Assembly (NCBI GenBank): GCA_017882705.1
Contig: JADGOZ010000012.1
Location: 1 to 40,570, forward strand
Reading direction: 5' to 3'
DNA from: Candidatus Nanopelagicales bacterium
GTDB lineage: Bacteria > Actinomycetota > Actinomycetes > S36-B12 > CAIYMF01
Length of the DNA stretch: 40,570 nucleotides
In this document: positions 24,111-40,260 of the stretch, one piece after another
Layout of the letters: every line of letters starts with the position of its first letter
How positions within the stretch are numbered: position 1 is the stretch's first letter
Made by a program: the position numbers and the translations under genes
The notes under the pieces: model-generated
Told to the model about the DNA's origin: nothing
Seen by the model: the letters and a program-made list of their open reading frames with translations, nothing else
The model's database searches: none

Positions 24111-24500
24111 TCAGCCGGCGATCACCTTCGTCGGCGCCACCCGTACGACGACGCGCACCGCGTCCGGACCGTCCCACGGGTAGACGTCGAGGTCGCGGTA
24201 CTTCTTCGCGAAGGCGTCGATGAGCTCGCGTCCACCCTCCTCGGTCATGGTCGCGGTGCCGCGGATCTCGGCGTAGGAGTAGGGGTCCTCCTGGTCGAAC
24301 ACGCACACGGTCACGCGGTTGTTGCGCTCGATGTTCACGTGCTTGCGTCTGCCTACCGTCGTGGAGAAGAGGACGTCGTCGCCGTCGTGCGTGATCCACA
24401 CCGGCGACAGCTGCGGCTGGCCGTCGGGCTCGACGGTCGCCACGGTCGCGAAGTTCTTGCCCTCGAGCAGCGCCCGCGCCTTGTCGTTGAGATGCGTCAT
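24111..24500 (-). CDS. PPOX-class (FMN/F420) oxidoreductase
   Basis: A 129-residue split-barrel flavoprotein of the pyridoxamine-5'-phosphate-oxidase-like class, close in pattern to the TIGR03618-type F420-dependent enzymes of actinobacteria. Recognisable stretches are NFATVATVEPDGQPQLSPVW, DDVLFSTTVGRRKHVNIERN, VCVFDQEDPYSYAEIRGTAT and EEGGRELIDAFAKKY. It probably reduces small substrates with F420H2 or FMN in the cytoplasm; the cofactor cannot be proved from sequence. The ribosome site before ATG 24500 is weak (GGGG). The PAP2 gene lies 25 bases upstream on the same strand, so both could be on one transcript. Confidence 0.88.
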   Translation of the reverse strand: MTHLNDKARALLEGKNFATVATVEPDGQPQLSPVWITHDGDDVLFSTTVGRRKHVNIERNNRVTVCVFDQEDPYSYAEIRGTATMTEEGGRELIDAFAKKYRDLDVYPWDGPDAVRVVVRVAPTKVIAG

Positions 24501-25497: not shown

Positions 25498-26991
25498 TCA
25501 GAGGTCGTTGCCGGCGTAGGACTGGTTGAAGCTCTTGTTGGCCAACGGGAAGTCGGGGACGATCACGTCGGTCAGGGCGACCGGGAGCGCCGGCCAGTTG
25601 AAGAAGGACGGGTCGACGACCTTCACCCGGCCCAGGAGACCGGAGTCGTCCAGCTCGACCCGGTGGGCGATCGTCCCTCGCCAGCCCTCGACGAGCCCCA
25701 GTCCGCTGCCAACGCCGCCGCGAGGTGCCTGTGTCCGCCCGGTCCCGAGGCGCCAGTCCAGCCGTCGGACGAGGTCGGCGATCACCGCTGCGGAGACGGC
25801 CAGCTCCCGGGCGCGGACGAGGTAGCGGCTCCTCACGTCGCCGCCCTCCTCCACGACCACCTCGAAGGCGTCGCCGAGGTCGACGACGGGGTGGTCGCGC
25901 CGCGCGTCGACGTCGAGGCCCGAGGCACGGGCGACGTAGCCCAGGGTCCCGATGCTGCGTGCCGCCTCGCTGCTGAGCACCGCTGTGCCGGCGAACCTGT
26001 CCTGGACCGTGGGGTTCCCCAGCGTGACATCGGCGAGCTCGGCGACCTCCCGAGCCACCGAGGAGATGACCTCGAGATCCGGCAGCGCGGTCAGGCGCGC
26101 CCCGCCCACCGTCAGCCCGCCGCGCAGGAGACGGTGCCCTGTCGTCGCCTTGTTCAGGCGCAGCAGCGTCTCGCGCAGCCGCTGGGCGTGGACGTTCACG
26201 ATGCCGAAGCCGACGTCGTTGGCCAGGGCACCGAGATCGGCGACGTGGTTGTGCATGCGCTCCAGCTCGAGCAGCAGGGCCCGCACGAGGCGGTCCTCCT
26301 CGGCGACGAGGATGCCGCCGGCCTCCTCCACCGCGAGGCAGAACGCGAGGGTGTGACCGACGGCGGTGTCCCCGCTGATGCGCTCGGTGAGCTCGATCGC
26401 CTCGTCAGGCCTCCTGCCCTCGAAGAGCTTCTCGACACCGCGGTAGACGAACCACAGGCGGGCCTTCATCCGCAGGATCGTCTCCCCCACCACGGAGAAG
26501 CGGAAGTGGCCGGGCTCGATCAGCCCGGCGTGGACGGGGCCGACCGGGATCTCGTAGACGCCGTCGCCTTCGACCTCGAGGAAGGGGAACGAGCCCACGT
26601 CGGAGTCGAAGACGGGCTCGGGATCGGCGTCCCGGCGCATCGGGTACCAGCCCTGCGGCCAGTGGCCGTGCCGGACGAGGCGGTAGGGCAGGGGGTGCCC
26701 GACCGGGACGACTCCGTACAGGTCACGTATCTCCCGCTCGAACCGGCCCACGGGGTAGTCGACACCGGCCAGGCTCGGGATCTCCGGACGATCGTGCGGC
26801 GTGCGCAGCACGATCTCGCACCGTCGGTCGTCCGCCGCGCGCACGAGGACGTAGACGATGCGGAACCCGTCGTCGTCCTCGTGCCCGGCGACCATGGCCG
26901 TTCGGAAGCCCTCGGACAGCCGTGCGCTCACCAGGCCGCGGACGTCGGCCGCCGTCGTCTCCAGGACCTCGGTCCGCGGTCGCTGGGTCAT
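25498..26991 (-). CDS. hycE: HycE/Rv0087-like large subunit (NuoCD fusion) lacking Ni-Fe ligands
   Basis: The protein (497 residues) fuses a NuoC-like domain (residues about 10-150, with FEREIRDLYGVVPVGHP) to a NuoD/hydrogenase-large-subunit domain. In true group 4 hydrogenases the metal is held by two CxxC motifs. Here the first site reads ELTERISGDTAVGH (Ser206 and Thr209 in place of the two Cys) and the C-terminal one reads DFPLANKSFNQSYAGND, again without Cys. It therefore cannot bind a Ni-Fe centre and is not subject to C-terminal peptidase maturation. This is the pattern of Ehr-type complexes and fits the last gene of the M. tuberculosis Rv0081-Rv0087 locus. ATG 26991 overlaps the stop of the upstream antiporter-like gene (ATGA). 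It is last in its operon. Its redox substrate is unknown. Confidence 0.9.
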   Translation of the reverse strand: MTQRPRTEVLETTAADVRGLVSARLSEGFRTAMVAGHEDDDGFRIVYVLVRAADDRRCEIVLRTPHDRPEIPSLAGVDYPVGRFEREIRDLYGVVPVGHPLPYRLVRHGHWPQGWYPMRRDADPEPVFDSDVGSFPFLEVEGDGVYEIPVGPVHAGLIEPGHFRFSVVGETILRMKARLWFVYRGVEKLFEGRRPDEAIELTERISGDTAVGHTLAFCLAVEEAGGILVAEEDRLVRALLLELERMHNHVADLGALANDVGFGIVNVHAQRLRETLLRLNKATTGHRLLRGGLTVGGARLTALPDLEVISSVAREVAELADVTLGNPTVQDRFAGTAVLSSEAARSIGTLGYVARASGLDVDARRDHPVVDLGDAFEVVVEEGGDVRSRYLVRARELAVSAAVIADLVRRLDWRLGTGRTQAPRGGVGSGLGLVEGWRGTIAHRVELDDSGLLGRVKVVDPSFFNWPALPVALTDVIVPDFPLANKSFNQSYAGNDL

Positions 26992-28475
26992 CGCGTCCCA
27001 CCCAGCAGCGCGGCGGCCTGTGCCAGCAGGCTCGACACGGGTCCGGTCGCGAAGGCGATCACGGCGGTGGCACCCAGGGCGATCACGAGCGGGAGCCGAG
27101 GGCCATGGGCGGACCGGTCGGGCTGCGACGACATGACGGCGGTGCTCGCCGGCGGTGCGGAGGCCGGGACGTCGCCTGCCGGCGAGGGCGAGAACAGCAT
27201 CGATGCGGTGTGCCGCGCGAGGCCGGCGAACAGGACGAGGATCAGCACGACGGCCACGACCATCACGGCACCGAGCCCGGCCCGGAAGCCGGCCACCACG
27301 ATGGCGACCTCGGAGAAGAACAGGCTGAACGGCGGGAAGCCGAGCAGCGCGGCCATCCCCGTCACGAACGGGATCGCCACTCCGGGCCTGCGCGCGACCA
27401 GGGAGCGGATGCCGGCGATGGTCGTCGTGCCCTCCGCCGCCAGGATCCGACCGGAGACCACGAACGTGCTGGACTTGGCCAGGCCGTGGCCCAGCACGTG
27501 GAGCAGCGCGGCGGTGAGGGCGAGCGGCCCGCCGATCGCAGCGGCGAGGGCGAGCAGGCCCATGTGCTCGATGCTGGAGTAGGCGAGCATGCGTTTGAGG
27601 TCGCGCTGGCGCACGATCAGGGCGGCCGACACGGCCAAGGACAGCAGCCCTGCTGCGACGAGCAGTCCTCGCATGAGCCCGGGTCCGATGACGGGGTCGA
27701 CGACCGCCTGCACCCGCAGGATCGCGTAGAACGCGACCGAGAGCAGGACGCCGGACATCAGGCCCGACACGGGCGCGGGAGCCTGGCTGTGCGCGTCCGG
27801 CAGCCAGCTGTGCATCGGCGCCAGGCCCGCCTTGGTGGCGAAGCCGAGCACGGCGAGACCGGCCGCGACTCGGACCAGCGACGGGTCCATCGGCAGCCTC
27901 GCCTGGTCGAGGACGACCCACGACAGGGTCGGCGTTCCCGACGCCAGCGTCGCGGCGTAGAGCAGCACGATCCCGAGGAAGGCGATCGCCACTCCGACCG
28001 ACCCGAGGACCACGTACTTCCAGGCCGCCTCGAGAGCACGGCGGGTGCGATGGTGACCGACGAGGAACGCGGTGGTGATCGTGGTCGCCTCGACCGCGAC
28101 CCAGAGCACGCCGAGGTTGTCGGCGAGCACCGCGAGCGACATGGCCCCGAGGAAGAGGCACACGAGGGTCGGGTAGACCCGATCCGTCGGGCCGGTCGTC
28201 GCCCTCGCCGAGAGCCCGCCCCAGGTCGCCGTCAGTCCGACGAAGCCGACCACCGTGAGCATGAACGCGGAGAGCGCGTCCACCCGCAGCAGGCCGCCCA
28301 CGGCCGTCGGGGTGGTGCCGCCCAGGACGACCGCGACCAGCCCCAGCCCGCTGACCAGGACGACGCCGGCACTCAGGATCGCGGCGTACCGGAGCGCGGC
28401 GGGGTGCCCGGACAGGGCAGCCAGGGCGGCGAGGCCGAGGCAGGCCACGACCGGAAGGAGGACGAGCGCCGCCAT
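26988..28475 (-). CDS. hycQ: HycQ/HyfF-like antiporter-type membrane subunit
   Basis: A 495-residue polytopic membrane protein of the NuoL/M/N-MrpA/D family, with about 14 helices. The ion-channel residues are visible: the Glu in the helix around WVAVEATTITTAFLVGHH, the Lys in LEAAWKYVVLG, the broken-helix Lys in FATKAGLAPMHSWLPDAHSQ, and the stretch RQRDLKRMLAYSSIEHMGLL. In complex I and group 4 hydrogenases these subunits carry protons or sodium ions, driven by the redox module. Position and sequence match M. tuberculosis hycQ (Rv0086). Its start overlaps the stop of the HycP-like gene by one base (TGATG), and its stop overlaps the HycE-like start. Confidence 0.9.
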   Translation of the reverse strand: MAALVLLPVVACLGLAALAALSGHPAALRYAAILSAGVVLVSGLGLVAVVLGGTTPTAVGGLLRVDALSAFMLTVVGFVGLTATWGGLSARATTGPTDRVYPTLVCLFLGAMSLAVLADNLGVLWVAVEATTITTAFLVGHHRTRRALEAAWKYVVLGSVGVAIAFLGIVLLYAATLASGTPTLSWVVLDQARLPMDPSLVRVAAGLAVLGFATKAGLAPMHSWLPDAHSQAPAPVSGLMSGVLLSVAFYAILRVQAVVDPVIGPGLMRGLLVAAGLLSLAVSAALIVRQRDLKRMLAYSSIEHMGLLALAAAIGGPLALTAALLHVLGHGLAKSSTFVVSGRILAAEGTTTIAGIRSLVARRPGVAIPFVTGMAALLGFPPFSLFFSEVAIVVAGFRAGLGAVMVVAVVLILVLFAGLARHTASMLFSPSPAGDVPASAPPASTAVMSSQPDRSAHGPRLPLVIALGATAVIAFATGPVSSLLAQAAALLGGTR

Positions 28476-29134
28476 CAGTCCCTCAGCTCGCTCAGGTCGT
28501 CGAGGTCGAGGTCCCCGAACTCGGCACGGATCCGGCCGGTGAGGACCTGCAGCACGAGCACCACGAGCAGGAGGTCGAGCGAGGCCCCGAGCTCGACCAC
28601 CAGCGGTACGCCGCCGGCGATGAGGAACGCCACCGCGGCGATCCCGTTGTCGAGCATCAGGAACCCGACCAGCTGGGAGATGGCGTGTCGACGCGTCGCC
28701 AGCACCAGGAACCCGAAGAGCACGAGGGCGAGGCCGATGGGCACGGCCGCCGCCGTGGGTCCGGAGCCCGCGGCCTTGAGCGGCTGGCTGACCAGGTAGG
28801 CGAGCGTGGTGAGCAACGCGAGCAGGATCAACGACGCCGTCGTGTTGATCATCGGCGTCTCGACCCGCCCCGGACCCGCGGGACCGGCCACCCGGCCGAG
28901 GACGACGGGCAGCACGAAGCCCTTCAGCACGAGCACGAGCAGCGCGACCGCCACCAGCTCCGGCAGGTGCGCGTCGATCCCGATCACGGCGACGAGGACC
29001 GCGAGGGCGACTCCCTGCACGGCGAGGAGCCGCACGATGGCGCGCAGCTCGCGCCGCCAGACGATGAGGACGCCGGTGAGCAGGAGGACGCCCGCGCAGA
29101 AGGCGACGAGCTCGGCGAAGAGGACGGGGGTCAT
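28475..29134 (-). CDS. hycP: HycP/HyfE-like membrane subunit
   Basis: A 219-residue integral membrane protein with about seven helices. The C-terminal half contains the NuoK/MrpC-like helices SQLVGFLMLDNGIAAVAFLI and VELGASLDLLLVVLVLQVL, with acidic residues buried in them (Asp in LMLDNGI, Glu in VELGAS). It matches HyfE of E. coli hydrogenase-4 and hycP (Rv0085) of M. tuberculosis in size and position. It probably forms part of the ion path between the NuoH-like and antiporter-like subunits. The ATG at 29134 lies 2 bases after the stop of the HycD-like gene. The very tight spacing through the whole cluster points to a single transcript. Confidence 0.87.
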   Translation of the reverse strand: MTPVLFAELVAFCAGVLLLTGVLIVWRRELRAIVRLLAVQGVALAVLVAVIGIDAHLPELVAVALLVLVLKGFVLPVVLGRVAGPAGPGRVETPMINTTASLILLALLTTLAYLVSQPLKAAGSGPTAAAVPIGLALVLFGFLVLATRRHAISQLVGFLMLDNGIAAVAFLIAGGVPLVVELGASLDLLLVVLVLQVLTGRIRAEFGDLDLDDLSELRD

Positions 29135-29136
29135 GG

Positions 29137-30093
29137 CTAGCCCGCCTGGACGACGAGGTAGGAGGCGGTGACGGCCAGGAACGCGAGAACGAAGGATCCG
29201 GCGAGCAGCTCGGGCACGCGGAAGAGCCGGAGCTTGGCGACGAAGACCTCGGCCGCGGCCAGCACGCAGCCCAGCACCGCGAGCTTGAGGACGAGCGTCA
29301 CCACGCCGACCAGCACCGCGGCGACGCCGGCGTCCTGCGCCACCCCCCAGGGGACGAGCAGGCTCCCGAGCAGACCCAGCAGGGCACCGAGCCGGAGCCA
29401 GGAGCCCAGCTCGAGCCAGCCGAGGTCGCGACCCGAGCTCTCGATGACCATCGCCTCGTGGATCATCGTCAGCTCGAGGTGGGTGCTGGGGTTGTCCACG
29501 GGCAGTCGGCCGGTCTCGGCCACCACGGCGATCGCGAGCGCCACCAGGGCGAGCAGGCTCACCGGTGACGCGACGCTGGCCGGGTCGTCGATCCGGGCCA
29601 GCACGATCCTCGACAGGGCCGACGACCCCACCGGGATCGACAGGGCGTACACCGCGACGAGCACGGTCGGCTCGACGAGCGCCGCGATCGTCATGTGCCG
29701 GCTCGATCCCATCCCTCCGAACGCCGTGCCGGCGTCGAGCCCGACGAGCGCGAGCGCCACCGTCCCCACGAGGAGGACGGACACGACGACGAACAGGTCG
29801 TCGGGCACGGAGACGAAGGGGACCGCCCCGACGAGCGGGACGAGCGCACAGGCCAGCAGGCCCGACGCCACCAGCACGAGGGGACCCGCTGCGGAGACCC
29901 AGCCCGTGCCTGACGCGCGCAGCGTCTCCTTGGCGGCGAGCTTGCGCAGGTCGCGCCAGGGCTGGAGCACGCCCGCGCCGACCCTGCCCTCGAGCCGCGC
30001 GCGGGTCTGGCGCATCAGCCCGACGAGCAACGGCGAGACGACGAGCATCACCACGACCTGGACGACGGCGAGCGCCGCCGCGCCGCCGTTCAC
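29137..30093 (-). CDS. hycD: HycD/NuoH-like membrane subunit
   Basis: A 318-residue membrane protein with about eight helices, of the NuoH/HycD/EchB family that anchors the soluble redox arm and forms the quinone-like cavity in complex I. The cytoplasmic loops carry the family motifs PWRDLRKLAAKE and ETGRLPVDNPSTHLELTMIH, followed by EAMVIESSGRDL; the buried Glu/Asp residues of this region couple redox chemistry to ion movement. It starts at GTG 30093, overlapping the stop of the HyfB-like gene (GTGA). It corresponds to Rv0084 in M. tuberculosis. All conserved acidic residues are present, so this part of the machine looks intact. Confidence 0.9.
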   Translation of the reverse strand: MNGGAAALAVVQVVVMLVVSPLLVGLMRQTRARLEGRVGAGVLQPWRDLRKLAAKETLRASGTGWVSAAGPLVLVASGLLACALVPLVGAVPFVSVPDDLFVVVSVLLVGTVALALVGLDAGTAFGGMGSSRHMTIAALVEPTVLVAVYALSIPVGSSALSRIVLARIDDPASVASPVSLLALVALAIAVVAETGRLPVDNPSTHLELTMIHEAMVIESSGRDLGWLELGSWLRLGALLGLLGSLLVPWGVAQDAGVAAVLVGVVTLVLKLAVLGCVLAAAEVFVAKLRLFRVPELLAGSFVLAFLAVTASYLVVQAG

Positions 30094-32087
30094 AGCGACA
30101 CCACGATGAGGACGGCGATCAGCGCGACGAAGGAGTACGCGAGATAGCGGTGGATGCTGCCGTTCTGCAACCGCCGTGCCGCGAGACCGACCCGGTCGAC
30201 GAGACGCACGGCCGGGACGTAGGCCCGCACCTCGACGACGTCCTCGAGCTGCTGACGGAACTGCACCCGCTCGACGAGGTAGCGCGACTCCCCCGCGTGG
30301 GTGATCTCCAGGTCCCGCTCGGGGCGCAGCGCGTCGTCGAACACGCGCGAGAGCGGCTCGGCGTACGACGTGGCCGTGTACTGCATCCGCGGGCTCACCC
30401 GGACACCGCCGCCACCCCACGCGAGGTCCACCGGACGCGACGGCCGACGACGGGCCATCCGCCAGGTCACCACCAGGACGGGGATCGCCACGAGCAGGGC
30501 CAGACCGGTCAGCGCCACCGGGTCGAGGGCAGCGCCCACGCCCGGGAGACCGAGGCCGGCCACCCCGAACACGTCGATGCCACCGAGACCGACCGCGCGC
30601 ACCACGGCCGTGGCCATGATGCCGGGGACGAGACCGAGGCCGACGACCGCGACCGCCGACACGACGAGGGCGACGCGCATGGTGGCCGGACCCTCGTGCG
30701 CCGTGCCGGCCTCGGGTCCTCGCGGCCGGGCCAGGAACGCGATGCCGTAGGCCTTCACGAAGGTCATGAGTGCGAGCCCGGCGGTCAGTGCGACCACGGC
30801 GACCGCGACCGGCATCACCACGGCCACGAGCCGGTCCTCGGGTCGCGCACCGTGGATGAGGGACTGCAGGAGCGCCCACTCCGCGACGAAGCCGCACGTG
30901 ATCGGCAGCGCCGCCGCACCGAGGGCACCCACGCCGAACGTCGCCGCCGTCGTGGGCATGCGCTTGCCGAGCCCACCGAGCCGGTCGAGGTCGCGCAGCC
31001 CGGTGGCGTGCAGGACGGATCCGGCGCCGAGGAACAAGGTCGTCTTGAACGCAGCGTGGCTCGCGACCAGCAGCAGGGCCGTGCCTGCGGCCACCTCGGC
31101 CGGACCTACGACGCCGTAGGAGCGCAGCAGCACGCCCGCGCCGATCGCCAGGAACATGAGGCCGACGTTCTCGGTGGTGGAGTAGGCCAGCAGGCGCTTG
31201 AGGTCGGTGGCGACGGATGCCTGCAGGATCCCGTACACCGCGGACACCGTCCCGAACGCGAGCAGGACGAGTCCCCACCACGGACGGCCGGCGGGAAGCA
31301 GCTGGAGCACGACGAGGAGTACGCCGTACACGCCCATCTTCACCATCGCGGCGCTCATCACGGCCGAGACGTGGCTCGGCGCCGCGGGATGCGCCCGCGG
31401 GAGCCACACGTGCATGGGCACGATGCCGGCCTTGGTCGCGAAGCCCAGGACGAGGAGGACGAACGCGAGCGACGTGCTGGCGCTCGCAGGGTCCACGTGC
31501 GACATCGCGGCGAAGCTCGTGCCGTGACCGGCAGCGGCCAGCACGGCGAATCCCAGCAGGATCAGCAGGAAGCTGAGGTGCGTCATGACGGCGTACCACA
31601 GCGCCGCGGACCGCACCTCGAGGCGTTCGCGGTGCTCGGTGAGGACGAGGACGGTGGAGGCCGCCGCCATGAGCTCCCAGGCGAGGAGGAACGACACGGC
31701 GTCTGCGGCCGCCGGCACCAGCTGCATGCCGAGCAGGAACGTCGCGAGAGCGGCCCACGAGCTCGCCGAGGCCGACGGGCCGTGGACGTAGCCGATCGCG
31801 TAGACGGCGGCGACCGCGCCGACCGCGCCGGCGACGACCATGAAGAAGCCGCCCAGCGGGGTCGGGCTCAGCACCACCGGATCGACGGGGAGGGCCAGTG
31901 GGATCACGAGCCGGCCCTGCCCACCGGTCAGGGCCAGCACCCCGGTGACGGCGCCAGCCACGCCGAGTGCGGCCGCGCCGACCCCCGCGAGCCTGGCGCG
32001 CAGCGCAGGTCGGGCGAGCACGGCGACCGACACGGTGGCGAGGGCCAGGACCAGCTGCGCCCAGAGCCCGACCTCGACCTGGGTCAC
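30090..32087 (-). CDS. HyfB-like antiporter-type membrane subunit
   Basis: The protein (665 residues) is the larger of two antiporter-like subunits, with 14-16 helices and a hydrophilic C-terminal extension of about 110 residues (RMQYTATSYAEPLSRVFDDA…) that ends in one more helix. Channel residues are present: Glu in SFLLAWELMAAAS, Lys in FATKAGIVPMHVWLPRAHPA, Lys in SAAMVKMGVYG, and the stretch ATDLKRLLAYSTTENVGL. The C-terminal extension is typical of HyfB/HycC subunits and lies along the membrane arm. It matches Rv0083 by position. The GTG start at 32087 overlaps the stop of the NuoB-like gene. An upstream extension of the frame runs across that gene and is not real. Confidence 0.9.
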   Translation of the reverse strand: MTQVEVGLWAQLVLALATVSVAVLARPALRARLAGVGAAALGVAGAVTGVLALTGGQGRLVIPLALPVDPVVLSPTPLGGFFMVVAGAVGAVAAVYAIGYVHGPSASASSWAALATFLLGMQLVPAAADAVSFLLAWELMAAASTVLVLTEHRERLEVRSAALWYAVMTHLSFLLILLGFAVLAAAGHGTSFAAMSHVDPASASTSLAFVLLVLGFATKAGIVPMHVWLPRAHPAAPSHVSAVMSAAMVKMGVYGVLLVVLQLLPAGRPWWGLVLLAFGTVSAVYGILQASVATDLKRLLAYSTTENVGLMFLAIGAGVLLRSYGVVGPAEVAAGTALLLVASHAAFKTTLFLGAGSVLHATGLRDLDRLGGLGKRMPTTAATFGVGALGAAALPITCGFVAEWALLQSLIHGARPEDRLVAVVMPVAVAVVALTAGLALMTFVKAYGIAFLARPRGPEAGTAHEGPATMRVALVVSAVAVVGLGLVPGIMATAVVRAVGLGGIDVFGVAGLGLPGVGAALDPVALTGLALLVAIPVLVVTWRMARRRPSRPVDLAWGGGGVRVSPRMQYTATSYAEPLSRVFDDALRPERDLEITHAGESRYLVERVQFRQQLEDVVEVRAYVPAVRLVDRVGLAARRLQNGSIHRYLAYSFVALIAVLIVVSL

Positions 32088-32572
32088 CGCAGCGTCACCC
32101 GACGCAATGCCTCGACGATGACATCGGGCTCCGGCGGGCACCCGGGCACGGCGAGGTCGACGTCGACCGCGTCGTGCGCCGCTCCGGCGACGCCGACGCC
32201 GCCGGCGAAGACCCCGCAGCTGCGAGCACAGTCGCCGACGGCCAGCACGACCCGAGGGTTCGGCGTGGCATCGACCGTGCGGCGCAACGGCTCGAGCATG
32301 TTGCGGGTGACCACGCCGGTGATCAGCACGACGTCGGCATGCCGAGCCGAGGCCACGAGCTTCGCTCCGTAGCGCTCGGCGTCGTAGACCGGTCCGAAGG
32401 TCGCCGCGACCTCGATCTCGCAGCCGTTGCACGATCCGGCGTCGACGTGGCGGACTCCCACGCTGCCACCGAAGGCAGCGTTGGCGCCCTGCAGACCCTC
32501 CGGACGTTGCGGAGCCGGCTCAGCCACACGGCCGGTGGCGCGCATCAGCCGCACCAGCCCGCGCATGCTCAC
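32084..32572 (-). CDS. NuoB-like Fe-S subunit of the Ehr/Hyc complex
   Basis: A 162-residue cytoplasmic subunit equivalent to the small subunit HycG/NuoB. The four ligands of the proximal [4Fe-4S] (N2-type) cluster are present: Cys48 and Cys51 (GSCNGCEIEV), Cys115 (VGDCARSCG) and Cys145 (VPGCPPEPD). Electron transfer next to the large subunit should therefore still be possible although the Ni-Fe site is gone. The gene matches Rv0082 in the M. tuberculosis locus. GTG 32572 overlaps the stop of the ArsR regulator gene (GTGA); an ATG at 32566 is the alternative start. No polyferredoxin (HycB/HycF) gene follows, so how electrons enter is unclear. Confidence 0.9.
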   Translation of the reverse strand: MSMRGLVRLMRATGRVAEPAPQRPEGLQGANAAFGGSVGVRHVDAGSCNGCEIEVAATFGPVYDAERYGAKLVASARHADVVLITGVVTRNMLEPLRRTVDATPNPRVVLAVGDCARSCGVFAGGVGVAGAAHDAVDVDLAVPGCPPEPDVIVEALRRVTLR

Positions 32573-32910
32573 CTGCGCTTCCGCGGGCTCGGTGACAGCG
32601 CGGCCTTGAGCTCGTCCTGCTCGGCGAGCAGCGCACGCAGGATCACCCGCGCGGCCAGGAGCAGGTCACGAACCTCGGGAACGGCGACGGAGTAGACGAC
32701 GGCGCCGCTCTCCCGGTGCTGGACGACGAGGCCCGCCCGACGCAGCACCGCGAGCTGCTGGGAGAGGTTGCTCGGCTCGATCTCGATCTGCTCGAGCAGC
32801 TCGTGCACGGCGTGGTCGCGTTCCGAGAGCAGCTCGAGGATCCGGATCCGGGCGGGGTGGCCCAGGGTCCGGAAGAAGTCGGCCTTGGCCTGATACAGCG
32901 GCGTCGCCAT
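32569..32910 (-). CDS. ArsR-family transcriptional regulator (Rv0081-like)
   Basis: A 113-residue winged-helix repressor-type protein. The start PLYQAKADFFRTLGHPARIR resembles M. tuberculosis Rv0081. The recognition region reads EIEPSNLSQQLAVLRRAGLV, followed by a beta-wing ending in SGAVVYSVAV. There are no Cys residues and no obvious alpha3N or alpha5 metal site, so it may sense something other than a metal through a Cys-free mechanism. ATG 32910 fits the family N-terminus; ATG 32922 would add MAAL and is also possible, and neither has a clear ribosome site. It is the first gene of the seven-gene cluster and overlaps the NuoB-like start. The promoter just upstream carries two inverted repeats, suggesting autoregulation. 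Confidence 0.9.
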   Translation of the reverse strand: MATPLYQAKADFFRTLGHPARIRILELLSERDHAVHELLEQIEIEPSNLSQQLAVLRRAGLVVQHRESGAVVYSVAVPEVRDLLLAARVILRALLAEQDELKAALSPSPRKRR

Positions 32911-32920
32911 CAGAGCTGCC

Positions 32921-32966
32921 ATTCATTCACGCATGAATCCTACACATGAACGAGTCTTCATGTCGA
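32921..32966 (-). promoter_or_regulatory. promoter with two ArsR-type inverted repeats upstream of the hyc/Ehr cluster
   Basis: On the minus strand, TCGACA (plus-strand 32961-32966) and TAGGAT (32937-32942) are 18 bases apart and look like -35 and -10 boxes reading into the regulator gene. A perfect inverted repeat ACATGAA-N6-TTCATGT covers 32944-32963, i.e. the spacer and part of the -35. Its TGAA-N6-TTCA core is the classic ArsR/SmtB operator pattern. A second repeat, ATTCAT-N6-ATGAAT, covers 32921-32938, overlapping the -10 end and the first codons. Binding at either would block the polymerase, so self-repression is likely. These boxes are by eye; the start point is not known. Confidence 0.65.
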
Positions 32967-33372: not shown

Positions 33373-36300
33373 CTACGGGACAGTGACGCCCTGGATGGTC
33401 ACCGGGGTGTGGAGCGTCGGGTTGAGCTCGTCTGCCTGGCTGACCGAACCTGGGGTGAGCACGTCCATCGCCTTGGGCACGGTGCCCGGGTCGACGGCGC
33501 AGATGGGATTGGCGGCTGCGATGGCGGCGGCTGTGCACTCCCCAAACTGGTAGGCCTGCGCGGTCGGTTGGAATCCTCGGGCCAGGTCGGAGCTGAAGCC
33601 GTCCTGGCCGGTCAGAACCACTGCGAACGCCCATCCGCTGGCGGGGGTTCCGCCCAGCGCCGACTTGGACACCGTGAACGTGATGAAGCGGGACAGTGCG
33701 TTCGCCCGGATCTGTACCGGGCCTAGCGTCGTGCCGGAGGCGTCAAGGAATCGCTGGCCGAAGCCCTGCACCTCGATCAGCCGGTTCCACGCCGAGCCCG
33801 GGTCGATGGCGTAGTTGCGTCCGGGGAACGACGCTGCGGTCGACGTGGCGCCACCCGCTCCGTTGTTGATGTACACGTCGACCAGCTGGGCGCCGAGGTT
33901 GCTGCCGAAGGTCGGCGTGAGGTCGGCCGTCTGCACCCGGAACGTCACGCTGTCGGTCCCGCTGTCGTAGACCTGGAACGCGGTGAGGTCGTAGGCCCCC
34001 GCGTGGAAGTCCGGCGACGTCGGATATGCGTAGGTGCCGGGGCCGTTGTCGTCTCCGGTCGGGTCGGTGGTGCTGTAGACGAGCGTGCCGGGGACGAAGT
34101 CGTAGATCACCGTCGTCTGGGCGAAGCCAGTCGCACCGTCGGGTGCGGTGGCCGTCACGGTAATCACGTCCGTGCCCGGCGGCGTCGTGACGGGCACGCT
34201 GAACGAGCCGTCCGCTGCCGCTGTGGTCGAGGCGAGAGTTGCGGCTCCGTCGATATCGACGTTGACCGTGTCGACGTCGACCTTCGCGTTGGGTGCAGTC
34301 GTCCCGGTGACAGTGGTCGTGCCGTTCACAGCCGTACCGTTGAGCGGGGCGCTCAACGTGACAGCGATGCCGTGCTGCGTGTGCGTGACGTAACGGGCGG
34401 TCGAGTCAGTGGGCCGCTCGGTGACGGCACCGGCGCGGATGTCGGCGGAGAGCCGGACGAACTGGGCCTCCGACCAGGTCAGCGGTGACGCGCTGCCCGC
34501 TGCCTTCCCGTCGGCGAAGCCGATCGACGCGCACTCGGCCGGTGCTCCGAAGGGCGACGCGGCCAGGTCGGGGTTCTCCCATGCCTGCTCCGGGATCAGA
34601 CCCACACCCGAACCGGTGTTGGCCATCTCGGACAGCAGCTGGACGGCCGTGGACCGGTCGCCGGTCGCCAGGGCCTGCTCGGCGCGCTCACCGGAGAGCG
34701 CCGGCCAGAGGTGCCCGGATCCTTGGTTCTGCCCCTGCGCCGCGCAGGTACCGGCCCAGGGCTTGCCCTGCACCGTGCAGTTCGTCGTGTCGCTCGTGTT
34801 GCAGTCGCCGTAGCCGTCCTCGGTACCGTGTGCGCTGGTGCCGTACCGGTAGAAGCCGGTCCCGCTGGGTGTCGTGGCCTTGATGACCTGGTCGACCACG
34901 CCGAGGGACGCCGCGATGTCGGGGTCGCTCGTCGGGAGGATGCCGAGCCGGGCGTACTCGAGGAAGCCCTGGTCGATGACGTCCCGTTGGTCCGCGGTCG
35001 GTCCCCCGTTGCCGAGGTTGTAGCTGACTGCCGCGTTCGGGTCGCCCGTCTTCGACAGGCGGATGAAGTACGGGCTCGTGCTGAGCGTGCCGTTGGTGGT
35101 CAACGTCCATGCCTTCACATGGCGCTGGAAGTCGTCGGCGGTCGCTCGGTACACGCGCGCGGCGGCCGGGTCGCCGTTCTTGTCGGCGATCCATCCCGCG
35201 GCGGCGAGTCCCGCGATCTCCGCGGAGATCGTCGACGGCGAGTAGCCGCTCTGCTCCTCCCACCTCTCCGAGCCGAAGGACGGCCCGTGAGCGACCAGGA
35301 AGTCCGCTGCCTTCTTGATGTGCTGCAGGTAGAAGGCGCGGTCGGTCAGGCCCACGGTCCGGGCCATCAGGATGGGGTAGGCCACCTCGTCGAGCTGCGT
35401 CCCGAAGGTGTCGGGAGCGGCCTTGCCGTTGACCAGGCTGTTGCGCGGGATCGACCCGTCGGGCTGCTGCTGCCTGTCGAAGAGGAAGGTGACGGTGTCC
35501 TTCGCCGTGGCGATGTCACCGTCGGCGACCAGACCGGTGAACGTCTCGTAGAGGTCGCGCGCGAACACCTCGCGATAGGACCCGAAGTACGTGTTCGCGG
35601 GGTCTCCTGCGCTTACCGCCTGCCCCCACGGACTGGCCAGGCTCGCAACGATCGCACCCGGGAACGTCTTGTCCTCGCTCGCCTTCAGCACGTTGGCGGA
35701 CAGGTAGTAGGTGTCCTTGAGGAGTGCCCGCTGGGCTGCAGGGAGCCCGTTCACGTGCGCCGGCGGGCGCAGCGTCTCGTCGTAGGTCTCCCAGCCGTCC
35801 CGGTACAGCGACGAGGTCTTGCCGAAGGGGGCGGTTGCGCTGGTGCCGGCGGTGGCGACGGCACCCGCCTGGGTCGAGCCGAAGCCGAGCGCCAGCGTAA
35901 AGGAACTGTTGTGACGCAGGTCGACCTGGGCCGTCTCGACCACGTTTCCGTTCGGGCTGCTGGAGTACGTCGCTCCCAGCGAGTGCCCAGAGTCGAGTGC
36001 GACCAGGCCGTCGCTGTCCGTACCGGCATAGCCCGTGCTGGCCGCCAGGAACGGACGGTCTGCTCGCAGGGCGCTGAACACGGGCGTGGCGTAGTCGCGG
36101 TTGGCTGCGTTCGTCGCGGTGCTGGTGTCGGACGCCACCGGCACCGGGGAGCCGGTCGATGTGTCGATGACTGCGTCGTCGGCTCCGCCGTTGCCGGCAC
36201 CGCCGCCGCCGTTGCCGTTCACCGTCGCGTCGTAACGGACGAACAGGCTGAGCTTCGGACCGGGCTGCTTCACCTGCAGCGACGTGTGCATCACAACGCT

Positions 36301-36762
36301 CGCGCGCGTCGGGTCGGTGACGTAGTCGGTGACGATCGAGTATCGGCCACTCTTGGCTGTGCTGGTGACGCGGCAGGCGAGACCCGACTGGTCGAGCGAC
36401 CGCACCGTGTAGGTCATGTCTCGGGTCTGCAGGTCGGTGAAGGTGCTGCCGTCGGTGACGACGTACTGGAGGGTCTCGACGTTCGTGTTGTCCACGGTCG
36501 GGTAGTAGACGTCCGAGAGCACGCCACCGGCCACCGTGTACCACACCTTCGAGCTCGTGTTGCGAGCCGTACCCAGACAGTCCTTGCGCGCCAGGTCGAA
36601 GTGCGACAGCGCCCCTGGGCCACCCGGTGCGCTGGCGGCCACGGCAGCAGGTGCCGAAGCGACAGCCATCCCGGCGAACGCGAGAGCCGCGGCGGAGAGG
36701 GCAGCGAGCGGACCCATCGTGATGCGGGTTCGGCGCTTGCGGGAGAGCTCGGACTGGGTCAT
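33373..36762 (-). CDS. secreted GH15 glucodextranase/glucoamylase, multidomain
   Basis: An extracellular enzyme of 1129 residues releasing glucose from alpha-glucans. A long signal peptide (ITMGPLAALSAAALAFAGMA, likely cut after about residue 40) leads to an N-terminal beta-sandwich domain (SDVYYPTVDNTNVETLQYVV). The GH15 (alpha/alpha)6 barrel follows. The catalytic-acid region is GSERWEEQSGYSPSTISAEI with Glu502/Glu503, and the base is in LIPEQAWENPD with Glu725. Next is an Ig-like domain (TVTGTTAPNAKVDVDTVNV) and a C-terminal DOMON-like domain with AYDLTAFQVYDSGTDSVTFR. This N-A-B-C order matches Arthrobacter glucodextranase, which acts on alpha-1,6-linked dextran, but glucoamylase activity is also possible. 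ATG 36762 has GGAAGG 8 bases upstream. Base and codon usage look less GC-extreme than in neighbours, and the gene is bracketed by repeats. Confidence 0.9.
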   Translation of the reverse strand: MTQSELSRKRRTRITMGPLAALSAAALAFAGMAVASAPAAVAASAPGGPGALSHFDLARKDCLGTARNTSSKVWYTVAGGVLSDVYYPTVDNTNVETLQYVVTDGSTFTDLQTRDMTYTVRSLDQSGLACRVTSTAKSGRYSIVTDYVTDPTRASVVMHTSLQVKQPGPKLSLFVRYDATVNGNGGGGAGNGGADDAVIDTSTGSPVPVASDTSTATNAANRDYATPVFSALRADRPFLAASTGYAGTDSDGLVALDSGHSLGATYSSSPNGNVVETAQVDLRHNSSFTLALGFGSTQAGAVATAGTSATAPFGKTSSLYRDGWETYDETLRPPAHVNGLPAAQRALLKDTYYLSANVLKASEDKTFPGAIVASLASPWGQAVSAGDPANTYFGSYREVFARDLYETFTGLVADGDIATAKDTVTFLFDRQQQPDGSIPRNSLVNGKAAPDTFGTQLDEVAYPILMARTVGLTDRAFYLQHIKKAADFLVAHGPSFGSERWEEQSGYSPSTISAEIAGLAAAGWIADKNGDPAAARVYRATADDFQRHVKAWTLTTNGTLSTSPYFIRLSKTGDPNAAVSYNLGNGGPTADQRDVIDQGFLEYARLGILPTSDPDIAASLGVVDQVIKATTPSGTGFYRYGTSAHGTEDGYGDCNTSDTTNCTVQGKPWAGTCAAQGQNQGSGHLWPALSGERAEQALATGDRSTAVQLLSEMANTGSGVGLIPEQAWENPDLAASPFGAPAECASIGFADGKAAGSASPLTWSEAQFVRLSADIRAGAVTERPTDSTARYVTHTQHGIAVTLSAPLNGTAVNGTTTVTGTTAPNAKVDVDTVNVDIDGAATLASTTAAADGSFSVPVTTPPGTDVITVTATAPDGATGFAQTTVIYDFVPGTLVYSTTDPTGDDNGPGTYAYPTSPDFHAGAYDLTAFQVYDSGTDSVTFRVQTADLTPTFGSNLGAQLVDVYINNGAGGATSTAASFPGRNYAIDPGSAWNRLIEVQGFGQRFLDASGTTLGPVQIRANALSRFITFTVSKSALGGTPASGWAFAVVLTGQDGFSSDLARGFQPTAQAYQFGECTAAAIAAANPICAVDPGTVPKAMDVLTPGSVSQADELNPTLHTPVTIQGVTVP

Positions 36763-36974
36763 GTTCTCGACCTTCCGGAGGGCATGCGAGTCGCGACGGG
36801 CACCTCGCCCACCATCGCCGCACGACTGCGATGGCGCAACCCCCTGGGTCGGATCGCCCGGCACTTGTGTGCATCGACCGCAAGATCAGGCGCGGTGGAT
36901 GCCACGCGCTCTGGACTAATGCGGGTCGGGGAGGTTGAGTGGGCAGGTCTCATGCCGGTGCGGTCGTGGACCGC

Positions 36975-37383: not shown

Positions 37384-40260
37384 TCAGCTGCAGCCGCTGG
37401 TCGAGCCGCAGCCCTCGCAGACGTAGCAGGAACCAGCAGGCCGCATCTTGATGCCGCAGGTCATGCAGAGCGGCGCGTCGGACGACTTGCCGGTGATGAC
37501 CTCGAGGAGCTCGGCCGAGGAGTGCGCCTCGCGGGGCGCCGGCGCCGAGCCGACCGGGGTGGAGTCGGCGGCGGGGACCGGCGACTGCACGGCGGCGGAC
37601 TGCGAGAGCGTCTCGAGCTCCTCCGCCACAGCGGTGACGATCTCCGAGGCCGACGCGGGAGCGCCGTAGCTCTGCGAGACCTGGTCGGCGCGCTCGTCGG
37701 CGGTGAAGATGCCGAGGGCCGAGCGCTTCTCGTAGGGCAGGTAGTCCAGGGCGAGGCGACGGAAGATGTAGTCCATCATCGACTGCGCCATGCGGATGTC
37801 GGCGTCGTCGGTGAGGCCCGCCGGCTCGAAGCGCATGTTGACGAACTTCGAGACGTAGGCCTCGAGGGGGACGCCGTACTGCAGCGCGATCGAGATCGCG
37901 ATGGAGAACGCGTCCATCACACCGGCGAGCGTGGAGCCCTGCTTGCCGAGCTTGAGGAAGACCTCGCCGAGACCGTCGTCGGGGTACGACCCTGCGGTCA
38001 TGTAGCCCTCGGCGCCGCCCACGGAGAACGACACGGTCTGGCTCGGGCGCTTCTTGGGCAGCCGCTTGCGGACCGGGCGGTACTCCACGATCGTCGCGGC
38101 CTCGGGCGTCGCCGCCACGCCGTTGTCCTGCTTGGTGGACTTGCCGTCGGAGAGCGGCTGGCCGACCTTGCAGTTGTCGCGGTAGATCGCGAGGGCCTTG
38201 ATGCCCATCTTCCAGGCCTGGAAGTAGATCTCCTCGACTTCCTCGATGGTGGCGTCCTCCGGCATGTTCACCGTCTTGGAGATCGCACCGGAGAGGAACG
38301 GCTGCGCCGCGGCCATCATCCGCACGTGGCCCATGGGCGTGATCGAGCGCTCGCCCATCGCGCAGTCGAAGATCGGGTAGTGCTCGGTCTTGAGGCCGGG
38401 GGCGTCGATGACGTGACCCTTGTCGGCGATGTACTCGACGATCGCCTCGACGGTCTCCTCGGTGTAGCCGAGCTTGCGCAGCGCCCGCGGGATCGTCTGG
38501 TTCACGATCTGCATCGAGCCGCCGCCGACGAGCTTCTTGAACTTCACCAGCGAGAAGTCGGGCTCGATGCCGGTGGTGTCGCAGTCCATCATGAAGCCGA
38601 TGGTGCCGGTGGGCGCGAGGACCGAGGCCTGCGCGTTGCGCCAGCCGTTCTTCGCACCGATCTTGTTGCCGGTCTCCCACGCCTGCTGCGCGAGCTTGAG
38701 CACGTCGGAGTCAAGGCTCGTCACCGTGCGGACGGTGTCGGTCGCCGCGGCGTGCTTGCGCATCACCCGCTGGTGGGCCTGCGCGTTGCGGGCGTAGCCC
38801 TCGTACGGCCCGACGACGCCGGCGATCTCCGCCGACCGCTTGTACGCCGTGCCCGTCATCAGGCTCGTGATGGCGCCCGCGAGCGCGCGGCCGCCGTCGG
38901 AGTCATACGGCAGGCCGGTCGCCATGAGCAGCGCGCCGAGGTTGGCGAAGCCGATGCCGAGCTGGCGGTACTTCACCGTGGTCTCGCCGATCGGCGCGGT
39001 CGGGAAGTCGGCGAAGCAGATCGAGATGTCCATCGCGGTGATGATCAGCTCGACGGCCTTGGCGAAGGTCGCGCCGTCGAAGGTGTCGTCGTCCTTGAGG
39101 AACTTCAGCAGGTTGAGGCTCGCGAGGTTGCACGAGGAGTTGTCGAGGCTCATGTACTCCGAGCACGGGTTCGACGCCGTGATGCGACCGGTCTCGGGGT
39201 TCGTGTGCCAGTCGTTGATGGTGTCGTCGTACTGGATGCCGGGGTCGGCGCACTCCCACGCGGCCTTGCAGACCTTCTCGAACAGCGTCTTCGCGTCGAC
39301 GGTCTCGATGACCTCGCCGGTCTCGCGGGCACGCAGGCCGAACTCGCGACCCTCCTCGACCGCGCGCATGAACTCGTCGCTCACCCGGACCGAGTTGTTC
39401 GCGTTCTGGTACTGGACGGAGGTGATGTCCTTGCCGCCGAGGTCCATGTCGAAGCCGGCGTCGCGGAGCACGCGGATCTTGCGCTCCTCCGCGGCCTTGG
39501 TCTCGATGAACTCCTCGATGTCGGGGTGGTCGATGTCGAGCACGACCATCTTCGCCGCGCGACGCGTGGCGCCGCCGCTCTTGATGGTGCCGGCGCTCGC
39601 GTCGGCGCCGCGCATGAACGAGACCGGACCGCTCGCGGTGCCGCCGCTGGAGAGCAGCTCCTTGCTCGAGCGGATGCGCGAGAGGTTGAGGCCGGCGCCC
39701 GAGCCGCCCTTGAAGATCAGCCCCTCCTCGCGGTACCAGTTGAGGATCGAGTTCATCGTGTCGTCGACGCTGAGGATGAAGCAGGCGCTCACCTGCTGCG
39801 GGCTCGACGTGCCGACGTTGAACCACACCGGGCTGTTGAACGAGAACACCTGGTTGAGCAGCATCCAGGTGAGCTCGTGCTCGAAGACCTCGGCGTCGTC
39901 GTCGGTGAGGAAGTAGCCGAAGTCCTTGCCCGCCTTGGTGTAGGTGAGCACCACGCGGTCGATGAGCTGCTTGAGGCTGCGCTCGCGCACGTCGGTGCCG
40001 ACCGCGCCGCGGAAGTACTTGGTGGTGACGATCGTGGAGGCGTTCACCGACCAGAAGTCGGGGAACTCGACGCCGCGCTGCTCGAAGACCGTCTCACCGG
40101 TCTTCCAGTTGGTCTGCACGACGTCGCGGTGCTCCCACGTGACCTCCTCGTAGGGGTGCACGCCGGGAGTGGTGTAGATCCGCTCCATCGACAGGCCGGC
40201 CAGCTCGGGCCGGGACTTCTTGGCGGCCGCGCTCTTCGCGTTGCCCGTGGTCTGCGTCAT
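37384..40260 (-). CDS. nrdJ: adenosylcobalamin-dependent (class II) ribonucleotide reductase
   Basis: A 958-residue enzyme reducing ribonucleotides to deoxyribonucleotides without oxygen or iron, using vitamin B12 to make a thiyl radical. The barrel contains SPVWFNVG and SACFILSVDD (first redox Cys), GGSGAGLNLSRIRSS (substrate loop), NPCSEYMSLDNSSCNLASLN (radical Cys), and APTGTIGFMMDCDTTGIEPD. The C-terminal part has a Cys-rich tail (CMTCG, CYVCEGCG, ending GSTSGCS) that probably binds zinc and passes electrons from thioredoxin to the active site. The start ATG 40260 has GGAGG 6 bases upstream. It is on its own strand segment, downstream of the likely nrdR-type neighbour beyond the edge. The plus-strand frame across it is a codon-bias shadow. 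Confidence 0.96.
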   Translation of the reverse strand: MTQTTGNAKSAAAKKSRPELAGLSMERIYTTPGVHPYEEVTWEHRDVVQTNWKTGETVFEQRGVEFPDFWSVNASTIVTTKYFRGAVGTDVRERSLKQLIDRVVLTYTKAGKDFGYFLTDDDAEVFEHELTWMLLNQVFSFNSPVWFNVGTSSPQQVSACFILSVDDTMNSILNWYREEGLIFKGGSGAGLNLSRIRSSKELLSSGGTASGPVSFMRGADASAGTIKSGGATRRAAKMVVLDIDHPDIEEFIETKAAEERKIRVLRDAGFDMDLGGKDITSVQYQNANNSVRVSDEFMRAVEEGREFGLRARETGEVIETVDAKTLFEKVCKAAWECADPGIQYDDTINDWHTNPETGRITASNPCSEYMSLDNSSCNLASLNLLKFLKDDDTFDGATFAKAVELIITAMDISICFADFPTAPIGETTVKYRQLGIGFANLGALLMATGLPYDSDGGRALAGAITSLMTGTAYKRSAEIAGVVGPYEGYARNAQAHQRVMRKHAAATDTVRTVTSLDSDVLKLAQQAWETGNKIGAKNGWRNAQASVLAPTGTIGFMMDCDTTGIEPDFSLVKFKKLVGGGSMQIVNQTIPRALRKLGYTEETVEAIVEYIADKGHVIDAPGLKTEHYPIFDCAMGERSITPMGHVRMMAAAQPFLSGAISKTVNMPEDATIEEVEEIYFQAWKMGIKALAIYRDNCKVGQPLSDGKSTKQDNGVAATPEAATIVEYRPVRKRLPKKRPSQTVSFSVGGAEGYMTAGSYPDDGLGEVFLKLGKQGSTLAGVMDAFSIAISIALQYGVPLEAYVSKFVNMRFEPAGLTDDADIRMAQSMMDYIFRRLALDYLPYEKRSALGIFTADERADQVSQSYGAPASASEIVTAVAEELETLSQSAAVQSPVPAADSTPVGSAPAPREAHSSAELLEVITGKSSDAPLCMTCGIKMRPAGSCYVCEGCGSTSGCS

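Follow-up and report, generated by a model that had tools for sequence, protein, structure and literature searches.

Does an operon built like that of a membrane-bound nickel-iron (NiFe) hydrogenase still encode a hydrogenase when the metal ligands of its large subunit have been replaced? The question is raised by a stretch of 40,570 nucleotides from Candidatus Nanopelagicales bacterium (Actinomycetota; contig JADGOZ010000012.1, positions 1 to 40,570; hereafter the window), in which seven collinear genes on the minus strand (25498-32922), each overlapping or abutting the next, encode an ArsR-type regulator and six structural proteins. An earlier note on this DNA had taken the gene products for an energy-converting-hydrogenase-related (Ehr) complex, an intact redox-driven ion pump and not a hydrogenase. 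Identification as Ehr is supported at the level of sequence by the alignment of the large subunit, by the family-wide conservation of Ser, Thr, Ser and Gly at the four former ligand positions, and by the presence of the operon in relatives that lack the maturation protein HypD. The complex is well conserved and very probably functional.

The former NiFe site

The large subunit (25498-26991, minus strand) is a HycE/EhrL-like protein of 497 residues with a NuoC-like domain and a NuoD/hydrogenase-like domain. Both it and the small subunit are homologous to subunits of group 4 NiFe hydrogenases, and its closest PDB chain, by sequence and by fold, is HycE (7z0s_E). When it is aligned with E. coli HycE, HyfG and NuoCD, both CxxC motifs are seen to be replaced, as the earlier note had claimed: RVCGIC becomes RISGDT (residues 204-209; 26365-26382, minus strand) and DPCYSCTDR becomes NQSYAGNDL. 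The four NiFe-ligand Cys of HycE correspond to S206, T209, S491 and G494. The protein holds only two Cys, C58 and C218 (the latter Cys in 57 of 80 sequences), and neither stands at a ligand position. The C-terminus, NKSFNQSYAGNDL (25501-25539, minus strand), carries S491 and G494 for Cys and N489 for the canopy Asp; it is Cys-free as first described, although that description had dropped the final Leu. It ends at the stop column of NuoCD, while HycE runs 32 residues further. In group 4 NiFe hydrogenases such a C-terminal extension is removed on maturation, HycE being cleaved where its 32 extra residues begin; the extension is absent in some Ech and Coo enzymes.

Conservation was followed in a locus set obtained by a genome-contig scan with alignment of nine orthologues. 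The best 80 of at least 553 confirmed stretches were kept, and the 79 loci compared with the window are therefore its nearest kin. Subunits were located in them by tblastn, gene calling in this high-GC DNA having picked shadow frames; the residue counts given subunit by subunit omit those that cover less than 75%, lie on the minus strand or lie more than 9 kb away. Across the window and its 79 relatives the four ligand positions are S in 80, T in 78, S in 79 and G in 80 of 80 sequences, and a stop codon directly follows the last aligned residue in 79/79 relatives, leaving no C-terminal extension. Residues around the NiFe site that have been discussed in the literature include Arg478, Ser283, Asp529 (called 'strictly conserved') and Glu193 of HycE (PMC9474812). 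The canopy residue Arg478 is R438 here and is kept in 80/80, whereas Ser283 has become N248 (Asn in 79/80) and Asp529, next to where the metal was bound, has been exchanged for Asn (N489; Asn in 79/80). G207 stands where the NuoCD motif TDRIEY has its Tyr, a quinone ligand. The former NiFe site is thus neither hydrogenase-like nor complex-I-like, and its tight conservation speaks against decay.

The remaining cluster, the membrane subunits and electron input

The seven genes are of the types named in the earlier note and lie where it had placed them. The NuoB/HycG-like small subunit (32084-32572, minus strand; 162 residues; Oxidored_q6, E 1.4e-28) has a CxxC...C...C pattern for one [4Fe-4S] cluster. 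Its ligands C48, C51, C115 and C145 are invariant in 73/73 sequences; the motif is the hydrogenase-type CxxC, not the CC of complex I, and aligns gap-free with HycG. Four membrane subunits follow on the same strand. The first, a HyfB-like antiporter-type subunit of the NuoL/M family (30090-32087), matches the hydrogenase 4 subunit B model PRK06521 at E 1.1e-164 (549.6 bits, cut-off 667) and keeps E137, K218, K296, H343, K347 and E402 in 68/68 sequences (numbered from the codon at 32084). The HycD/HyfC/NuoH-like subunit (29137-30093; 318 residues; NADHdh, E 5.1e-31; best PDB match HycD, 7z0s_D, E 9.5e-34) keeps E193, H205, E207, H212, E213 and E218 in 75/75. A HyfE/HycP-like subunit (28475-29134; 219 residues) aligns with E. 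coli HyfE and matches PRK11492 at E 1.8e-21 (77 bits, cut-off 136), and the HyfF/HycQ-like antiporter-type subunit (26988-28475; 495 residues; Proton_antipo_M, E 2.1e-50) keeps E129, K215 and K334 in 71/71. Pfam families exceed their cut-offs for every protein of the operon except the HyfE-like one, for which the Pfam scan gave no family. Among the NCBIfam matches listed, the cut-off is reached by ArsR alone, the six structural proteins matching hydrogenase-4, Nuo and related models below theirs. The channel residues examined are kept at 94-100% with the exceptions of S342 and K249 in HyfB, the latter being Lys in just 15/68. The cluster Cys and channel Lys/Glu are thus intact as the earlier note had stated, and its description of an intact redox-driven pump is supported at that residue level and not beyond it.

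No NuoI-type ferredoxin subunit was found in the 79 loci, and searches that took in as much as 10 kb of flanking DNA gave no match to HycF, HyfH, HycI, HypC, HypD or HypE. A HycB/HyfA query gave one match there, a gene in L093 that looks NarH-like by eye. Six-frame scans for C..C..C...C in the 79 and eight other loci gave 14 matches, none in the window, and two were judged gene-like by eye: a ferredoxin in L077 and the same NarH-like gene. In the window itself, motif and open-reading-frame (ORF) reading agrees with the earlier statement that hyp, formate dehydrogenase (FDH) and ferredoxin genes are lacking. The absence of HyfH is not due to search blindness, because the same query recovers a gene in another Ehr-like type (L173). 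That type also lacks CxxC motifs and is seen in L173 (genome G146), L156, L159, L161 and L162, with RVSGTDSF at the first site and SFAMSQAACDG or SFALSQGGCDG at the second; the HyfH-like gene was found in the one locus examined, L173.

Distribution and neighbourhood

All 79 loci are labelled as Actinomycetota except L058, an 'uncultured bacterium'. In 71/79 relatives all six structural genes lie in a single collinear run, so the operon arrangement is not due to chance; seven others are cut by contig ends, and in L110 (Mycobacterium palustre) the best matches for three subunits lie on the opposite strand, which suggests two copies of the operon. Of 60 genomes from its genus, family and order, its own among them, 8 have close matches (E 1.8e-181 or better); matches at E 1e-50 are found in 23/296 genomes of a phylum sample, a count that includes other group-4-like types. 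The nearest sequence comes from a genome of the same genus (75%), with Nocardioides next.

Relatives are also carried by plasmids of Rhizobium, Azospirillum, Burkholderia, Methylovirgula, Methylocalor and Rhodococcus. All six lack Cys at each of the four ligand positions; three have Ser for T209 and Azospirillum has Ala, while in Burkholderia S206 is Ala and S491 is Asn. Annotation was examined for 6/83 plasmid records, the Azospirillum record having no annotated features; the five annotated loci hold the same six genes together, those from Proteobacteria ending with the NuoB-like gene, and the Rhizobium and Methylovirgula operons begin with a non-ArsR helix-turn-helix gene (XRE-like by eye). 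On the Methylovirgula plasmid pHY1 (L140) the Ehr operon adjoins an FoF1-type ATP synthase operon.

A conserved neighbour was sought as a partner and rejected: beyond the structural genes, ORF clustering of the 79 loci found only ArsR to be widely common (56 loci). The scan aligned and Pfam-scanned 107/176 downstream ORFs, with 216 upstream ORFs outside the Pfam scan. Phosphoenolpyruvate carboxykinase lies near the operon in 9/79 loci (L054, L084, L085, L089, L094, L103, L104, L108 and L119), downstream in eight, with six of the nine in Pseudonocardiaceae; a malic-enzyme-like protein (by eye; no Pfam match) and a CBS/BON protein each occur in 10/79. All three were set aside because they are too clade-bound. 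In the window, a glucodextranase-like GH15 protein (33373-36864) is encoded upstream of the operon, and 37384-40260 resembles by eye a B12-dependent (class II) ribonucleotide reductase.

Maturation genes and the four-cysteine relatives

HypD is found in 9/60 related genomes, own genome included. It occurs in 3/8 Ehr-bearing genomes (G000, G017 and, as a fragment, G053) against 6/52 others, a trend towards HypD in Ehr-bearing genomes (p 0.09). It is absent from the other five, G007 (88% complete), G013 (95%), G016 (98%), G025 (97%) and G056 (83%), and HypE over cut-off is likewise absent from the first four. The search for hyp and FDH genes that the earlier note had proposed did find them in the own genome, outside the window: HypD and HypE on contig C152 (L144), and FdhA with NuoE- and NuoF-like neighbours on C150 (L143), which by eye is probably a soluble NAD-type FDH. 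Contig C132 (L039) carries hydrogenase genes that resemble group 3b but score below the model cut-offs, together with a gene for a maturation protease. A second NuoD-like gene lies on a 3.3-kb contig (C91, L006), beside genes that look PH-domain-like by eye.

Six related actinomycetotal loci keep all four Cys (genomes G277, G170, G159, G245, G137 and G042; L145-L151, L167-L171). Five came from 20 loci read for motifs in the 296-genome phylum sample, of which 53 genomes matched (G277, G170, G159, G245 and G137). In all six the motifs are R-x-C-x-x-C and ELCYxC, in a compact operon whose large subunit has no C-terminal extension. The sixth, G042 (same order, 68% complete; two unjoined contig pieces), has an ArsR 77% identical to that of the window followed by an operon 31-50% identical; its large subunit reads RACAGC and FELCYACVDR, then stop. 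All six loci have ArsR (46-53% identity in the other five) and HyfB-, HycD-, HyfF-, large- and NuoB-like genes, and none gave a HyfH match; a HyfE-like gene was detected in two (L146 and L167), with a gap at that place in the others. Neither HypD nor an over-cut-off HypE is present in three of the genomes, G277 (97% complete), G245 (96%) and G137 (99%, in a single contig), while G170, G159 and G042 have both, HypE being a fragment in G042.

Trees of the relatives found here and the E. coli proteins, built without Ech, Coo, Mbh or Geobacter EhrL sequences, join the four-Cys group with the Cys-less group (support 97/98 and 92/98). The approximately unbiased test does not reject its grouping with Hyc (p 0.15), and its place inside the Cys-less group is open in the second tree, which leaves out the partial G042 row, one long branch and some near kin. 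One tentative suggestion, which we hold to be doubtful, is that the complex is part of a complex I-superfamily branch whose catalytic site is neither of the NiFe nor of the quinone kind and in which the NiFe cofactor was given up before the cysteines. On this view the four Cys would serve as thiols or bind a different cofactor, and the Ser/Thr/Ser/Gly site of the window would be the next step after a Hyp-less four-Cys stage.

Putative regulation by ArsR

The ArsR/SmtB-type regulator (32569-32922, minus strand; 117 residues, or from Met5) is Rv0081-like. It matches HTH_5 in Pfam (E 8.9e-13) and HTH_metalloreg over cut-off in NCBIfam, and its best PDB match is Rv0081 (6jmi, E 1e-29). Like 54 of 58 relatives, it is Cys-free. 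In 52/79 relatives an ArsR gene of the same orientation stands no more than 800 bp upstream of NuoB. A putative operator, TGAAGACTCGTTCA (32947-32960, minus strand), is located just upstream of a -10-like TAGGAT (32942-32937). Its pattern, TGAA-N6-TTCA, occurs in 10/59 ArsR upstream regions (window included) against 21/5425 control pieces, the 59 regions representing 57 distinct loci (L040 = L060, L043 = L058). TGAAGANNTCTTCA with up to 2 mismatches has a single match in the window, and 17/100 shuffles also had at least one. A second dyad, TTGC-N8-GCAA (TTGCTAAnnTTAGCAA-like), occurs in 26/59 upstream regions against 39/2935 control pieces; because the scan ran through every 4-base half site and 12 gaps, this dyad was picked after looking. 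Ser at one recognition-helix position is found in 10/10 TGAA-type and 1/25 TTGC-type loci (52 loci and the window; Fisher 6e-8, kinship ignored), and the putative operator type thus covaries with the recognition helix of ArsR. In the six four-Cys loci, the region before ArsR showed no dyad of either operator type.

A proposed mechanism and its alternatives

How might such a complex work? We lean, by a small measure, towards a compact six-subunit Ehr complex in which the single [4Fe-4S] cluster takes electrons from a soluble donor and reduces a small polar substrate, and ions are pumped under ArsR control. It would consist of the NuoB-like subunit with its one cluster, the NuoCD/HycE-like subunit, HycD as anchor, and HyfB and HyfF as pumps together with HyfE, with ArsR adjoining. 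A soluble low-potential donor would reduce the cluster after docking on the surface occupied in complex I by NuoI, and the cluster would pass electrons to the substrate in the rebuilt pocket (S206, D208, T209, N248, R438, N489, S491). A precedent is MBS of P. furiosus, in which a cluster beside the former NiFe pocket is reported to reduce sulfane sulfur (PMC7684303). The reaction would be relayed through the charge chain of HycD to HyfB and HyfF, moving H+ (or Na+). ArsR is proposed to act at the TGAA-N6-TTCA site as a repressor of its own promoter; the pump would then be made only under a signal, which the mycobacterial operon suggests, by analogy, may be low oxygen.

Several observations weigh against this picture, in which activity, donor and acceptor are all predicted. 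E159, the counterpart of the hydrogenase proton-transfer residue Glu193 of HycE, is Glu in 71/80 sequences and Gly in 9/80, and a Cys stands at 490, one residue before the third ligand position, in 2/80 sequences and in 3/6 plasmid relatives. The AlphaFold model of the large subunit has a predicted local distance difference test (pLDDT) score below 50 at 132-175 and 492-497, which places the former NiFe pocket beyond inspection in the model. A HycD loop reads STHLEL against AEAEQEL in E. coli HycD, with a 3-residue insertion, and the coupling path is therefore not identical to that of E. coli. No neighbour other than ArsR is common enough to name a partner, and neither operator type is present in 18/52 loci with ArsR. 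Unlike the mycobacterial operon, the window has no site resembling the DosR-box consensus, which makes the low-oxygen link one of analogy only.

Other functions can be weighed against the same residues. A quinone reductase of the complex I kind, with the cluster reducing menaquinone that enters by way of HycD, is unlikely: the Tyr of TDRIEY is G207 here, the beta1-beta2 loop of NuoD is replaced by the hydrogenase-like HAGLIEPGHF, the ligands of the NuoB-like subunit are CxxC and not CC, and the canopy Arg is hydrogenase-like, Lys being reported for most complex I (PMC9474812). Reduction of sulfane sulfur (polysulfide) would bring the complex close to MBS, a related complex of known reaction in which two of the four NiFe-ligand Cys are lost. 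The cluster-binding motif of MBS is, however, described as three residues shorter, with an open iron site, and two Cys are kept (PMC7684303), whereas in the window the small-subunit motif is gap-free against HycG and no ligand-position Cys is left; this reading is highly improbable. The complex might also have left redox chemistry and serve as a regulated ion channel or antiporter with the soluble arm as sensor or scaffold. The operon indeed encodes no electron-input subunit and one cluster remains, but with all four cluster Cys invariant (73/73) such a role is distinctly improbable.

Two further possibilities depend on genes elsewhere in the genome. Formate might be the donor through an FDH encoded elsewhere: an FDH-Ehr has been proposed for lineages sibling to Cyanobacteria (PMC6349859), Geobacter Ehr proteins are reported to rise on formate (PMC7894505), the own genome has FdhA with NuoE/NuoF-like genes, and FdhA over cut-off is found in 5/8 Ehr-bearing against 16/52 other genomes. 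This difference is not significant (p 0.11), and three Ehr-bearing genomes lack FdhA over cut-off (G025, 97% complete; G053, 86%; G056, 83%). The own FDH, moreover, sits beside its own NuoE/NuoF-like genes, and in the 79 loci there is no HycF-like gene and the sole HycB-like match is NarH-like (L093, by eye), so that formate as donor seems improbable. That the complex is still a hydrogenase with ligands supplied from elsewhere could draw on HypD/HypE and the separate hydrogenase-like genes of the own genome; with the ligand positions replaced throughout 80 sequences, no C-terminal extension and HypD absent in 5/8 Ehr-bearing genomes, it is barely credible.

Comparison with known systems

A compact six-subunit Ehr complex with one cluster, a nearly fixed pocket and a putative operator is a small testable object. 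Two features deserve most attention, the rebuilt pocket and the four-Cys relatives without Hyp; the latter, if truly such, would show a metalloenzyme exchanging its cofactor stepwise. Ehr complexes were reportedly treated by Marreiros et al. in 2013. In M. tuberculosis, Rv0082 and Rv0083 are presumably NuoB-like and HyfB-like. The hyc locus Rv0081-Rv0087 of that organism is given in the same order as the genes here, ArsR, NuoB-like, HyfB-like, HycD, HycP, HycQ and HycE (PMC6901956); the likeness had been pointed out before, and the published gene table and the ArsR match to Rv0081 bear it out. Rv0080, adjoining Rv0081, is also described as PNPOx-like (PMC6901956), and a PNPOx-like gene lies near the operon at 24111-24500 of the window. 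The mycobacterial operon has already been called EHR in print (PMC6728331), and the reaction of Ehr is named there and elsewhere as an open question (PMC6728331, PMC10284858, PMC10432482).

Ehr complexes have been described in Geobacter, Nitrospira, ammonia-oxidising archaea and Margulisbacteria (PMC7894505, PMC10284858, PMC10432482, PMC6349859). They are reported to combine large and small subunits of group-4-like type with membrane subunits that resemble HyfE and NuoL (PMC7894505) and to lack CxxC (PMC10284858, PMC10432482), as the window does with S206/T209/S491/G494. Among the papers listed, titles and abstracts described neither the Ser/Thr/Ser/Gly site nor the covariation of ArsR with its operator, nor four-Cys relatives without Hyp. 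What is added here is the lack of a NuoI-type subunit in 79 loci, the Asp-to-Asn change, the covariation of the putative operator and the HypD-less Ehr-bearing relatives.

With E. coli hydrogenases 4 and 3 (Hyf/Hyc; formate hydrogenlyase, FHL) the window shares counterparts of HyfB, C, E, F, G and I, but it lacks the NiFe ligands, the C-terminal extension and any HyfA- or HyfH-like gene in the operon; counterparts of HyfD and FdhF were not seen among the operon genes, FdhF being outside the query set. It resembles NuoB and NuoCD of complex I in fold and in ending at about the same column, and differs in having neither the quinone Tyr nor the CC motif. Like MBS of P. furiosus, it belongs to the complex I superfamily and its former NiFe site is modified, but it has no residual Cys at a ligand position and no shortened cluster loop, and against the three [4Fe-4S] clusters of MBS its operon encodes one.

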